64,000 nucleotides of DNA from Geothrix limicola (GTDB taxonomy: Bacteria > Acidobacteriota > Holophagae > Holophagales > Holophagaceae). The notes under the pieces were generated by a model. It was given only the letters and a program-made list of their open reading frames with translations, ran no database searches and was not told the DNA's origin. A program made the translations under genes and the position numbers. This document shows positions 4,836-48,878 of the stretch, piece by piece (within the stretch, counting starts at the first letter, position 1; each line of letters begins with the position of its first letter). The DNA lies in NCBI RefSeq assembly GCF_030268085.1, contig NZ_BSDE01000002.1, forward strand, positions 372,001 through 436,000, written 5' to 3'.

Positions 4836-4885
4836 TGACCTCACGGGGTCCGCACACTCGAATCCTTGTCAGTTCCATAGCGCGA

Positions 4886-4978
4886 TATCCAGAAAGGTGG
4901 AGGGACGGGCCCTGTGAAACCTTGGCAACCTGCGAAAGCAAGGTGCCAATTCCTGCCGACGGCGTGGGCTGTCGGATA
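4886..4978 (+). promoter_or_regulatory. SAM-I (S-box) riboswitch aptamer 1
   Basis: The conserved S-box core is present: AGAAAGGTGGAGGGA at 4891-4905, then GGCCC, TGAAACC, GGCAACC and GGTGCCAATTCC. P1 can form between TATCC (4886-4890) and GGATA (4974-4978), and P4 between CCGAC and GTCGG just inside it. SAM binding stabilises P1 and lets the terminator at 5012-5043 form, switching off the downstream sulfate assimilation and uptake operon. The segment from about 4868 to 4957 is nearly identical to the second copy at 16,500-16,590. Confidence 0.95.
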
Positions 4979-5011
4979 GATGCCGGGCGGTTCGAACCAA
5001 CAGACGCACAC

Positions 5012-16415: not shown

Positions 16416-16517
16416 ACGCACCCGACCTCGCGCTCAAGTGAATGGCCCCTTGACCCGATGGGGGGATGTGCGAGACTTGTTCCTTGTTACGAGATCTTTG
16501 TCAGTTCCATAGCGAGT

Positions 16518-16614
16518 TATCCAGAAAGGTGGAGGGACGGGCCCTGTGAAACCTTGGCAACCTGCGAAAGCAAGGTGCCAATTCCTGCCGTGATCGAGCA
16601 ATCGAACGCGGAGA
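16518..16614 (+). promoter_or_regulatory. SAM-I (S-box) riboswitch aptamer 2
   Basis: This aptamer has the same core as the first one, including AGAAAGGTGGAGGGA (16523-16537), GGCAACC and GGTGCCAATTCCTGCCG. About 90 bases up to 16590 are almost identical to copy 1, while P4 and the 3' part of P1 differ. P1 pairing (TATCC with GGAGA) looks weaker than in copy 1. Upstream, a TTGACC at 16450-16455 could be a -35 element, but no good -10 follows at the right distance. It should control the metY-metA-lysC-SDR operon by SAM-dependent termination. Confidence 0.94.
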
Positions 16615-16648
16615 GATGTCGAGCTGTGTCGAGCTGACGCAACCATCG

Positions 16649-32302: not shown

Positions 32303-34132
32303 ATGGCACGCATCGAACGGGAATGGCAGGCTGAACACGAGGGCGCGGCCCTGGCTTCGGAACTGCATCGGATCATGGTCATCAGCCACCGGCAGGCCAA
32401 GGGCTTCATCGACGGCCACTGCGTCACCGTGAACGGCGAGACCGCCGACAAGCACGGGCACCGGCTGAAGGCCGGCGACACGGTGAAGGTCGCTTTCGAC
32501 CCCGAGCAGACCTATGAGGTGCTGCCCCCGGCTCGCAAGCTGCAGGCCGGCCCCTTCGAAACCCTGTGGGAGGACAACCACCTCCTCTTCGTCTACAAGC
32601 CCGCCGGGCTTCTCACCGTGCCCGCCGAACAGGGCAACGAGCCCAACCTGGCCGAGGCCATCACCGAGTCCTATCGCCGCCGCGGCTTCAAGCGCTTCAA
32701 CCTCTACATCGTGCACCGCCTCGACCGCTTCACCAGCGGCGTGCTCGTCTTCGCCAAGACCCCCGAGGCCCTCCACGGCCTCAAGAAGCATTTCGAACTG
32801 CACCGCCTCCAGCGCGTCTATTACGCCATCCTCCTGGGTGAGCTGCCCGAGAACAGCGGCACGCTGGCTGGACACCTCATCGAGCACGCCAAGTCCCTCA
32901 AGATGTCCGTGGCCAAGGTCCGCAAGGGCCCCGGCGGCGGCAAGCGCATGCCCGCGGGCGCCAAGGAGGCCGTGACCCACTACCGCGTCATCGAGCGCCT
33001 ACCGGGCCACACCGTGGTGGAAGTCAAGCTCGAGACCGGACGGCGCAACCAGATCCGCGTGCAGTTCGCGGATCGCGGCTTCCCCCTGCTCGGCGATCAA
33101 GTCTACGGCACCGAAAGTCCTTTGCTGGACCGCCAGGCTCTGCATGCCGAACTGCTGGGCTTCAAGCACCCCATCACCGAAGAGCAGGTCACCGTCACGG
33201 CCCCCATGCCCGCGGACATGGAAGCGGCCCTCAAGGCCCTGCGCAACCAGGCCCGCATCGTCCGGGCGAGCATCGGCGTGAAGGGCGAGGAAGGCATCTT
33301 CAAGCCCACCGAAAGCCGCGATCACAAGCTCAAGCGCGTGGCCCGGGCCAAGCGCTACGAGGATCACGAAGACGCCCCCAACCGTCCCCGGCGGGATGAG
33401 GGCGAGGATCGCCCCCGGCGCACCTTCGGCAGCACCGACCGCCCCGCGCGTCCCCGCCGCGAGGGTGATGAGGAACGTCCTCGCCGCAGTTTCGGCGCCG
33501 CCGAGCGTCCCACCCGGCCCCGTCGCGACGATGAAGAAGCCCGCCCCAAGCGCGCCTTCGGCAGTGCTGATCGTCCCGCGCGTCCCCGCCGCGACGGTGA
33601 TGAAGAACGTCCCCGCCGCAGTTTCGGCGCCGCCGAGCGTCCGACCCGGCCCCGTCGCGATGATGAAGAAGCCCGCCCCAAGCGCGCCTTCGGCAGCACC
33701 GACCGCCCCGCGCATCCCCGCCGCGAGGGAGATGAGGAACGTCCTCGCCGCAGCTTCGGTGCCAGTGACCGTCCCGCCCGCCCGCGCCGTGAGGATGGCG
33801 AGGCCCGCCCACCCCGCACCGCTACGCGCCCCAGCGAGCGTCCCGCCCGTCCCCGCCGCGATGGCGAGGAAGAACGTCCGCGCCGCAGCTTTGGTGCCAG
33901 TGACCGCCCCGCCCGCCCGCGCCGCGAAGACGGCGAGGCCCGTCCTTCTCGCACCGCCGCACGGCCCGGTGAGCGCCCCGCGCGTCCCCGCCGCGAAGAG
34001 ACCGACGAGCGTCCGCGCCGCAGCTTCGGCGCCGGCGAGCGGCCTTCGGGCCCCCGCCGGGAGGGCCCTGGCAGCCGCCCCGCGGGCAAGTTCGCGCCAC
34101 GCACGGGCAAGCCCAAGCCTCGGAAACCCTAG
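32303..34132 (+). CDS. RluA-family pseudouridine synthase with S4 domain and Arg-rich repeat tail
   Basis: The 609-residue protein starts with an S4-like RNA-binding domain (about 12-70) and an RluA catalytic domain with D141 in HRLDRFTSG, then ETGRRNQIRVQF and GDQVYG. The enzyme part ends near residue 330 and isomerises uridines in rRNA or tRNA; the target position is unknown. Residues from about 350 to the end are a low-complexity tail of some 250 residues built from RP-x-RPRR and ERPRRSFGA units. Such tails are expected to bind RNA. Typical RluA proteins are about 300-350 residues, so the tail nearly doubles the length. Confidence 0.92.
   Translation: MARIEREWQAEHEGAALASELHRIMVISHRQAKGFIDGHCVTVNGETADKHGHRLKAGDTVKVAFDPEQTYEVLPPARKLQAGPFETLWEDNHLLFVYKPAGLLTVPAEQGNEPNLAEAITESYRRRGFKRFNLYIVHRLDRFTSGVLVFAKTPEALHGLKKHFELHRLQRVYYAILLGELPENSGTLAGHLIEHAKSLKMSVAKVRKGPGGGKRMPAGAKEAVTHYRVIERLPGHTVVEVKLETGRRNQIRVQFADRGFPLLGDQVYGTESPLLDRQALHAELLGFKHPITEEQVTVTAPMPADMEAALKALRNQARIVRASIGVKGEEGIFKPTESRDHKLKRVARAKRYEDHEDAPNRPRRDEGEDRPRRTFGSTDRPARPRREGDEERPRRSFGAAERPTRPRRDDEEARPKRAFGSADRPARPRRDGDEERPRRSFGAAERPTRPRRDDEEARPKRAFGSTDRPAHPRREGDEERPRRSFGASDRPARPRREDGEARPPRTATRPSERPARPRRDGEEERPRRSFGASDRPARPRREDGEARPSRTAARPGERPARPRREETDERPRRSFGAGERPSGPRREGPGSRPAGKFAPRTGKPKPRKP
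33370..34065 (+). repeat. in-frame tandem repeats coding the Arg-rich tail
   Basis: About 700 bases consist of imperfect 60-base units (20 codons), each coding an ERPRRSFGA or ARPKRAFGS block followed by an RPxRPRR block and acidic residues. Two neighbouring 120-base units (near 33,450-33,690) are almost identical, which suggests recent duplication. The repeats keep several frames open on both strands; those other frames are not genes. Confidence 0.85.
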
Positions 34133-34648: not shown

Positions 34649-34730
34649 TCGTGGCATGACCTCCATCGGACGGCCGCTCCCCCGGAGCAGCCTCCCACTC
34701 GGCCTTAGCCTCGTGGCGATGGAGCCTCCT

Positions 34731-34782
34731 CGCCGGATCCTCGCTTCGCAGACTGCCCCGCAGTCTGCTCCGCGATCCGGCG
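34731..34782. repeat. nested palindromic element, copy A (52 bp)
   Basis: The outer arms CGCCGGATC (34731-34739) and GATCCGGCG (34774-34782) are perfect complements. Inside them GCAGACTG (34748-34755) pairs with CAGTCTGC (34761-34768) around CCCCG. Copy B at 48,782-48,833 has the same length, the same nested layout and the same spacer TTCGCAG, with compensating base changes in both stems. It ends five bases before the stop of the dehydratase gene and could also act as that gene's terminator hairpin. Confidence 0.8.
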
Positions 34783-34787
34783 GTCGG

Positions 34788-47648: not shown

Positions 47649-48758
47649 ATGTCCACACCCAGTTTCGCCCTCAGCGCCCCGATGGAGGCCCAGCCCGCCA
47701 CCAATCCCATGGGCCTTCACCGCATCGACCACTTCCAGCTGACCGGTTCCATCGGTCGGCTGGAACCGCTGTACCGCCGCATCGGCTTCGCGCGCATCGC
47801 CAGCGGCCAGGCCGTCTGGGGCCGCTTCGTGCACATGCGCCAGCAGCGCATGGACATCCTCATCTACGAAGCCGATCCCTCCCATCCCGCCGGGCGCTAT
47901 TTCCAGAACCACGACGAGGGGGTCTGCGCCCTCAGCTTTCTCGTGGAGGACCTGGACGCCGCCCTCGCGCACGCGCGCTCGAGCCAGGCCAAGGTCCTGC
48001 TCGAACCGCAGGTCCATGTCCTCGGCGAAGGCACCCTCCGTTTCGCGGCCATCCAGGGCGTGGGCGAGGTCTGGAACTTCCTCGTGGAGCGCCGCGGCGA
48101 GCTCTCCGCCTTCTGGCCCGACCTCTCTCACGATCCCGCCCCGGCCCTCTGCGATCCCGGCCTGGTGCGCGTGGATCACCTGACGAACAACGTTGGCCCC
48201 GCCGAGATGGAGGCCCTGGTGGACTTCTACGGCCGCGTCTACGGCTTCGTCGTCACCCGCGAATTCCACATCCGCGGCGCCCTGGGCACGGGCCTGGATT
48301 CCAAGGTCGTGCAGAGCGCCAACAACCAGGTGATCATCCCCATCAACCAGCCCACGGACGAGAAGAGCCAGGTGCAGGAGTACGTGAACCGCCACAAGGG
48401 CCAGGGCGTCCAGCATGTGGCCATGTCCACCAACGACATCTTCCACACCTTGCGCACGCTGCGTGAGCAGGGCTTTAAATTCCTGCGGGTGCCCGACACC
48501 TACTACGAGCTGCTGCCCGGCCGCATCACCAAGGGCGGCTACAGCGTGCGCGAGGACCTCGCCACCGTGAAGGATCTCGGCGTCCAGATCGACGGCGACG
48601 AAAGCGGGTACCTGCTGCAGATCTTCACCGAAGACCAGATCGGACCGCTGTTCTTCGAGATCATCCAGCGGAGGGGGAACATGGGCTTCGGAGAGGGCAA
48701 CTTCCAGGCGCTGTACGACTCCATTGAATTGGATCAGAAAAAGAGGGGCGTGCTGTAA
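47649..48758 (+). CDS. hppD: 4-hydroxyphenylpyruvate dioxygenase
   Basis: This 369-residue enzyme converts 4-hydroxyphenylpyruvate to homogentisate in tyrosine catabolism. The Fe(II) ligands of the second vicinal-oxygen-chelate domain are H177 (VDHLTNN), H256 (QHVAMST) and E337 (FFEIIQR). GFGEGNFQALYDSIE near the end is the family C-terminal helix. The gene ends IELDQKKRGVL and TAA. The same eleven codons plus TAA recur 120 bases downstream in the same frame (see 48,841). Confidence 0.96.
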   Translation: MSTPSFALSAPMEAQPATNPMGLHRIDHFQLTGSIGRLEPLYRRIGFARIASGQAVWGRFVHMRQQRMDILIYEADPSHPAGRYFQNHDEGVCALSFLVEDLDAALAHARSSQAKVLLEPQVHVLGEGTLRFAAIQGVGEVWNFLVERRGELSAFWPDLSHDPAPALCDPGLVRVDHLTNNVGPAEMEALVDFYGRVYGFVVTREFHIRGALGTGLDSKVVQSANNQVIIPINQPTDEKSQVQEYVNRHKGQGVQHVAMSTNDIFHTLRTLREQGFKFLRVPDTYYELLPGRITKGGYSVREDLATVKDLGVQIDGDESGYLLQIFTEDQIGPLFFEIIQRRGNMGFGEGNFQALYDSIELDQKKRGVL

Positions 48759-48781
48759 TCCCCCAATCCTGATTCGCTCCT

Positions 48782-48833
48782 CGCCGGGTCCCGACTTCGC
48801 AGGCTCCCCCGGAGCCTGCTCCGTCACCCGGCG
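48782..48833. repeat. nested palindromic element, copy B (52 bp)
   Basis: The outer arms CGCCGGGT (48782-48789) and ACCCGGCG (48826-48833) enclose GCAGGCTCC (48799-48807) paired with GGAGCCTGC (48811-48819) around CCC. Length and layout equal copy A at 34,731, and stem bases differ in a paired manner (GCAGACT with AGTCTGC against GCAGGCT with AGCCTGC). It lies between hppD and the duplicated hppD tail. Confidence 0.8.
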
Positions 48834-48840
48834 GTCGCGA

Positions 48841-48878
48841 CCATCGAGCTGGATCAGAAAAAGCGGGGCGTTCTCTAA
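48841..48878 (+). pseudogene. duplicated 3' end of hppD
   Basis: This segment codes ATIELDQKKRGVL and TAA in the same frame as hppD, exactly 120 bases after the equivalent codons at 48,721-48,758. Six of eleven codons differ between the copies, and every difference is synonymous. The frame between the two TAA codons is free of stops. It may be a remnant of a second hppD copy, a 3' end brought by an inserted element, or an unrecognised read-through extension. Confidence 0.75.

Follow-up and report, generated by a model that had tools for sequence, protein, structure and literature searches.

In the window analysed here, a stretch of 64,000 nucleotides of the Geothrix limicola genome (contig NZ_BSDE01000002.1, positions 372,001 to 436,000), the last codons of hppD recur a short distance downstream of the gene with a palindrome lying between the two copies. 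The product of hppD has 369 aa and scores 314.7 bits with TIGR01263 in a profile search. Direct comparison bore out the original prediction that the end of the gene, eleven codons and the stop, is repeated in frame 120 bases on (Table 1): the working tail, R, reads ATT GAA TTG GAT CAG AAA AAG AGG GGC GTG CTG TAA and the second tail, R', reads ATC GAG CTG GAT CAG AAA AAG CGG GGC GTT CTC TAA, with six codons differing, all six synonymously as had been claimed, and no other change. The offset of 120, with 41 matches out of 70, stands alone among offsets 110–130, the others of which give 13–23. The frame is indeed open from the first TAA to the second (read by eye), and the palindrome said to lie between the tails is present, its core, P, being delimited by a covariance model (R1) that was built from ten copies, of which the copy at hppD is one (87.3 bits). 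In a scan of 864 kb of the window genome, 5 of the 684 predicted gene ends reached a tail-repeat score of at least 21, against none of the mismatched pairs; hppD scored 23, one of the five, located on contig 3, consists of two related domains and was excluded as a tail, and a chance origin of the hppD tail repeat is unlikely. A second hppD-like gene of the same genome is on another contig and is 39% identical. A complete tandem pair of hppD genes in relatives, which the original prediction held would count against it, was not seen in any of the relatives' hppD loci read, over 250 to 1500 nt downstream of the gene.

Table 1. Positions within the window of hppD, its two tails, the intervening hairpin and related features
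Feature	Position	Strand	Basis or remark
Second P core in the window (L075)	34729..34786	+	Covariance model
hppD, 4-hydroxyphenylpyruvate dioxygenase, with working 3' end	47649..48758	+	Open frame; TIGR01263 match above cut-off
R, working tail, IELDQKKRGVL-TAA	48723..48758	+	
Spacer 3' of hppD stop, 11 nt, TCCTCCNATC-like	48759..48769	+	Similar in several P-bearing relatives
Left flank of P, TGATTCGCTC	48770..48779	+	Includes the left half of the hairpin foot, TCGC (48774-48777)
P core	48780..48837	+	Hairpin with bulge and internal loops; apical stem differs among copies
Right foot, GCGA (48837-48840), complementary to TCGC, with the junction to second tail	48837..48842	+	
R', second tail, IELDQKKRGVL-TAA	48843..48878	+	Adjoins downstream neighbour, as in P-less relative G003 (L016)
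Convergent neighbour ORF, 267 aa	48895..49698	-	No NCBIfam match

By covariance-model search, P was detected in 41 of the 61 genomes of the family, comprising all 31 genomes of the genus Geothrix searched, which at E 0.01 have between 1 and 30 copies apiece, and 10 of 30 genomes of other genera. Across the phylum (199 genomes, E 1e-6), matches were found in 15, namely the window genome, 13 other Geothrix and one genome of a sister genus. The copies analysed are the highest-scoring among some 150 matches listed, and across the 114 distinct 58-nt copies among those matches 20 pairs are kept in 95.3% of cells, as against only 35–43% in a control with the pairing partner slid by one or two, a figure that leans towards the model since the same structure had been used to find the copies. 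The apical stem shows many compensatory pair types. P is a structured, dispersed hairpin family, REP-like in character. No Rfam family matches P as a known RNA: a search of eight loci at E 0.1 gave no match over the core, the only matches being in L058 (a tRNA, and mir-4041 under its gathering score, neither over the core), and the window itself gave two SAM riboswitches only, none over P. These riboswitches (RF00162; window 4882-4986 and 16514-16622) share 97 bp at their 5' parts that are 97% identical and 11.6 kb apart, and imperfect repeats with a period of 66–69 bp occupy 33377-34080 of the window. A derivation of P from phages or plasmids was rejected, the 84-bp insert having no match in either collection at E 1e-5. 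Looked at as an intrinsic terminator, P is not followed by a T run in the listed copies, except in L136 and L166, which have five T's in the foot.

Several other arrangements were seen around P. Tandem arrays with a unit of 71–73 bp occur at L062, L059, L102, L103, and L114, and in several arrays the copy beside the gene's stop codon looks intact and those farther away more decayed. At four loci (L112, L128, L133, L120) P is followed by GGAGGTGCGG(C/A)ATGA, resembling a ribosome-binding site and start codon, ahead of different genes, and at L058, L181, and L148 a tRNA-like sequence lies beside P (by tRNA model in L058 and by likeness of the right flank in the others).

The association of P with repeated gene ends was examined in the 122 P clusters among the matches listed, which were oriented and the 250 nt upstream aligned against the 250 nt downstream. 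Direct repeats scoring above the 99th percentile of mismatched pairs flank 47 of the 122 clusters, and only two clusters surpass the largest mismatched-pair value because, we infer, some mismatched pairs are orthologous loci. Of these 47, 37 have a second copy that begins no more than 9 nt from where P ends on the right (33 of them no more than 4 nt), and on the left side the distance from P to the repeat is variable, from 0 to 197; the ten repeats that start more than 9 nt from P include terminator pairs and were left out of the tail count. Most of the repeats are gene 3' ends, spanning the last 20–150 bp of the gene, and a few are gene starts (L056, L120). Judging by the translations, we take the repeated ends to include those of a threonine dehydrogenase-like gene, an LpxD-like acyltransferase, glutaminyl-tRNA synthetase, an acyl-CoA dehydrogenase, GlmS, and FtsX-like permeases, as well as tRNA-side sequences; names backed by search are those of hppD (TIGR01263) and the L058 tRNA alone. 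The earlier idea of an element that sits at gene ends and restores the 3' codons therefore holds as a pattern, in that other copies of P and other hairpins precede a repeated gene end, but does not extend to every copy, since among the ten strong P copies of the window genome a clear tail is present in three (hppD, L074, L078) and a weak one in a fourth (L080). For the second P copy in the window (L075), a duplicated gene end was looked for and none was detected.

The extent of the repeat varies even at one gene, the duplication at the threonine dehydrogenase-like gene measuring 149 bp in L105 and 82 bp in L108. Arrays of the form R-P-R-P-R are present at L146, L153, L063, and L080, and in arrays that hold tails the final unit is a tail and never P. 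At L175 the repeat continues beyond the stop, through the spacer, and into the first bases of another P, an arrangement that reads as a tandem duplication. At L068 (in G011) P is followed by a threonine dehydrogenase-like tail with no matching tail found in the 250 nt upstream, possibly a displaced unit.

P is also placed with precision relative to genes that converge on it. Among the matches listed, the stop codon of a convergent ORF of at least 80 codons begins one base after P in 41 of the 122 clusters, and all other offsets from 0 to 11 together account for four clusters; in the copy at 34729-34786 of the window, the right end of P is 1 nt from the TGA of the convergent ORF. Many of the 41 stop-seated loci are orthologous, and they present 28 different 8-mers. 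The foot of the hairpin pairs with the stop and one further base, whether TAA, TGA, or TAG, with a mismatch in 6 of the 41 (by eye), and foot–target pairing sums to 125 over 39 targets against a shuffle mean of 66.8 and a largest value of 87 in 5000 shuffles. Pairing does not prove that the foot guides the choice of target, since self-templated repair of imperfect palindromes, as set out in passages of PMC8794818, could yield the same result; template switching at imperfect palindromes could have made the feet of P. Part of another report has REPs at most 15 nt behind stop codons lowering translation in Escherichia coli (PMC12306157), and by analogy a role of P in translation or at mRNA ends is possible.

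Among relatives, hppD loci were fetched from 30 of the 46 genomes with a match, and the end of the gene was readable in 28 (L033 and L042 are cut): 14 of these have at least one extra tail and the other 14 a single one, with G047 reaching four tails and G040 and G038 three. At hppD in other species, the position of P is occupied by a second palindrome or a terminator, and some of the other inserts are terminator-like. For 17 second tails behind other inserts, one of which is a P relative, the preceding 80 nt have a mean folding energy of −40.3 kcal/mol, against −25.6 (sd 8.0) kcal/mol for 265 intergenic windows of the window genome, 9 of the 17 lying within the lowest 5% of that control. P and several of the other hppD inserts have a common hairpin base, a TC/TC loop and then TCG plus 3–4 nt before R' (by eye). 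Most inserts are shorter than 220 bp, the longest read, of about 590 bp in G047, containing only mechanical open frames that cross tails. G047 also has a tail duplicated along with part of a terminator, the joint lying inside a hairpin arm, and it has tails with a common spacer; in several species R' is interrupted by other inserts. Three further tails, all of which terminate precisely with the stop codon, turned up in the 864 kb of the window genome, as did one gene start copied from the ATG onward. Two of these tail inserts and the gene-start insert resemble another hairpin family, and one insert is a P relative (by eye). A scan for gene starts in the window genome gave six matches with a score of at least 19 against one in the null, the sole match read being that on contig 1, position 171798. 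A third kind of insert, ending in GAGCCAG, was observed at HU-like loci (L121, L124, L132) between a P-less working end and a tail of ~30 bp with P.

The differences between the two copies bear on their history. We aligned 44 R/R' pairs as nucleotides, which introduces no bias to synonymous changes, and retained the 39 with a coding frame, five frameless pairs being excluded; some of the retained frames, namely those of L138 and of the gene starts L056 and L120, are open to doubt. The 107 codon differences comprise 88 that are synonymous, 1 stop-for-stop exchange, and 18 that are non-synonymous, where a synonymous share of 36.5% is expected if only R is constrained (probability 4.5e-23, a value that is too strong because pairs from related species have a common ancestry and composition guided the choice of frames). 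A separate count on hppD tails (53 synonymous, 5 not, 13 stop exchanges) was set aside, its search pattern having favoured synonymous changes. The stop of R' is at the homologous codon in 36 of the 39 pairs and is a different stop from that of R in 11; in L073 and L125 the usual stop is absent from one of the two copies. In 34 of the 39 pairs R and R' cease to be alike somewhere from 9 nt upstream to 4 nt downstream of the stop, the exceptions being L056, L120, L138, L156, and L175. The sequences 3' of the two stops are mostly unrelated, L108 and L072 having near-identical tails with unlike sequence directly after the stop, and orthologues of two species likewise lose likeness near the stop. 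Because the changes are mostly synonymous and the stops differ in 11 of 39 pairs, both tails seem to have diverged mostly while each served as a gene end, and an origin from two alleles would be the easiest account of this. These synonymous differences and exchanged stops agree with the proposal that homeologous recombination left R' over from a second allele, and that proposal forms part of the best explanation.

The order of events is suggested by what lies beyond the last tail. In G003, hppD runs directly into the convergent neighbour without an insert; a neighbour like that of the window follows the last tail in G022 and G047 (by eye), and where this could be judged (the window, G022, G047) the last copy adjoins the hppD neighbour of the P-less relative, other species having different neighbours 3' of hppD. 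Three hppD loci have at least three tails, and in each of them divergence is greatest in the outermost one. With the last tail at the old neighbour and the outermost tail most diverged, new tails seem to have been inserted upstream of old ones. L233, which like L246 and others comes from a metagenome assembly that may hold chimaeras, shows the same succession of second hppD tail, spacer, and P, but on its right P adjoins the leader of a pilin-like gene and has no tail beyond it. At the HU-like loci R is without P and R' with P, and two unlike ends appear to have been put together.

We therefore favour, at a probability that we put a little below one half (about 0.48), the reading that a new gene end with its hairpin was brought in by recombination from another allele and that the old end was left downstream as a fossil. 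Under such a process, R with the hairpin would enter from another allele or strain; the left joint would be made by ordinary homology within the gene, and the right joint would form where the hairpin ends, with strand exchange or repair synthesis halting there and re-annealing at a short match. A joint upstream of the recipient's stop would leave the recipient's own tail as a fossil, and a joint downstream of it would leave no second tail. Evidence in favour comes from the synonymous excess, the stop exchanges, the precision of the right junction, the divergence of outermost tails, L233, and the HU-like loci, together with the single tail in half of the readable hppD loci (14 of 28). Several observations point the other way. 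At the LpxD-like locus, all 7 of the 7 species have an R' with 95–98% likeness to the R of its own species and no more than 89% to any other, the junction being the same in 6 of the 7, which looks like local homogenisation, and at hppD own-species likeness (mean 0.898) is slightly higher than that between species (0.84–0.88). The tandem trace in L175 and the spacer common to tails of G047 also count against it, the spacer would have to be new in L108 and L072, and the stop is missing in L073 and L125; no donor allele was identified for R and no enzyme was found. A more specific form of one-ended recombination, which we regard as unlikely, would have the gene-free hairpin as its fixed end: a structure-specific enzyme would read the hairpin base (TC/TC loop and foot) and join the right end to a site complementary to the foot, in many cases precisely at a stop codon, and alleles and species would thereby trade whole gene tails and 3' UTRs with the frame kept.

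Two explanations are serious rivals to the replacement of a gene end by recombination. A replication fork may have slipped at the hairpin and duplicated the gene end along with it, slippage or gene conversion then homogenising the copies and one hairpin being lost. The own-species likeness at the LpxD-like locus, the L175 tandem trace, the R-P-R-P-R arrays, and the joint within a hairpin arm in G047 all speak for such local events, and local duplication and conversion surely take part; as the main cause we think them rather unlikely, since a copy behind a stop should gain non-synonymous changes, whereas 89 of the 107 differences are synonymous or stop-for-stop, likeness ends near the stop with mostly unrelated sequence beyond, and arrays that hold tails end in a tail and not in P. 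Alternatively, P may transpose with long target duplications of variable length, insertions in the last codons surviving because the duplication restores the gene. The precise right junction, the two lengths at the threonine dehydrogenase-like gene, and the dispersal of P accord with this, and the elements IS1549 and IS1634 offer a precedent (passages of PMC2266710). Such duplications should overrun the stop at random, however, and in 34 of 39 pairs the repeat stops at −9 to +4 nt from it; a Y1 transposase (PF01797) is present in 12 of 61 genomes and in the window genome as just a fragment, and terminators and other hairpins show the same picture, which makes transposition improbable in our view.

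Tails could also accrete through a site-specific recombinase that attaches at gene 3' ends, with every insert supplying a gene end of its own. Genomic islands use tRNA genes as attachment sites in this manner. Consecutive tails of which the outermost is most diverged, the hairpin base common to P and several hppD inserts, and an integron integrase above cut-off in 40 of 61 genomes are compatible with accretion; we consider it very unlikely given targets that are many unrelated genes, inserts that are mostly below 220 bp with even the longest holding only mechanical open frames, and integron attC sites of another kind, P occurring once in six integrase-side stretches (47.9 bits, L271). Least likely to us is that the second tail is functional, through read-through translation or as a regulatory RNA, and kept by selection. 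The peptide IELDQKKRGVL or IELDQKQRGVL is kept in 17 of 21 extra hppD tails, a count tilted by its search pattern towards synonymous changes in the first seven codons, but R' is absent from half of the readable hppD loci and broken by other inserts in several species, and the spacing from R to R' is a multiple of three in only 11 of 35 pairs (chance, one third) and is 121 in one hppD case. In-frame read-through, which the original prediction had raised for the tail, was rejected because this spacing is not conserved modulo three.

Among known systems, the closest likeness is to the mORFs of fungal mitochondria, which according to the parts of PMC3630166 available bring a foreign carboxy-terminal end (Allomyces atp6; Glomus atp6, atp9, cox2, and nad3), fuse it to the resident gene, and displace the native end downstream; the mORF C-terminal of atp6 differs in nucleotides from that of a relative with identical amino acids. 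A second gene end displaced downstream of an insert is likewise found at hppD and other P loci. In contrast to mORFs with their encoded homing endonuclease, P inserts are gene-free hairpins of less than 100 bp and occur at many bacterial chromosomal genes. As to foreign origin, the synonymous differences and stop exchange fit, no donor was found, and the LpxD-like tails follow their own species. The duplicated tails work like mORFs but are not filed as a member of that class, being without an endonuclease and their foreign origin not being proved.

P resembles REP and REPIN sequences in being short, dispersed, structured, near gene ends, and also grouped. In the portion of PMC3733652 available, REPs associated with RAYTs are palindromes of 20–40 bp tagged GTAG or CGTC, the tag being unpaired at one end; P is longer (58-nt core), with a bulge, internal loops, and a locus-specific foot, and an unpaired GTAG or CGTC tag is absent from its ends, which are CTCGCC and GGCGGTCG. 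The word stem "duplicat" is absent from the main text of that article. No RAYT linked to P was found; PF01797 is represented in the window genome by a 35-position fragment only and has no match in G040, which has 30 copies of P, and a present RAYT-driven spread was rejected, the Y1 transposase being too rare. For IS1549 and IS1634, long variable direct repeats of 8 to 514 bp beside the element are described, with a mechanism that is not known (passages of PMC2266710). Long repeats are present at P as well, where they end near a stop codon and usually not at the left end of P; the elements of that family, by contrast, are 1.5–2 kb with a transposase, and the same passages make no tie of the repeats to stop codons.

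The integrase of a chromosomal integron lies outside the window in the window genome (G000 contig 4, 18756-19700), TIGR02249 being above cut-off in 40 of the 61 family genomes and the integron integrase present in most of the genus, and many attC-like sites were seen in the stretches read, with arrays in L269, L272, L273, and L274. An attC is an imperfect hairpin with a variable apical part and has the core sites RYYYAAC and GTTRRRY. The attC-like sites of this genus are GCCTAAC...GTTAGGC and 66 or 123–125 nt long; P has neither that core nor that size, and its feet vary by locus (TCGC, TCCC, TAAG, TGAC, and others), such that P was rejected as an attC of this integron. A further analogue of tail duplication is given by pneumococcal merodiploids, whose duplication through one-sided pairing in transformation is described in part of PMC3784515. 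ComEC (PF03772) is present, the same search also matching in 10 of 14 control genomes. In the open-licence literature searched, no account of such duplicated gene tails with hairpins in bacteria was found.

The duplicated tails constitute a readable fossil record of the turnover of gene ends and 3' UTRs, and they resemble, in bacteria and without an endonuclease, the gene-end swaps reported from fungal mitochondria. Stop-seated P with its locus-specific foot further provides a testable case for whether small hairpins seek out their positions or create them, a question that REP-like elements also raise.
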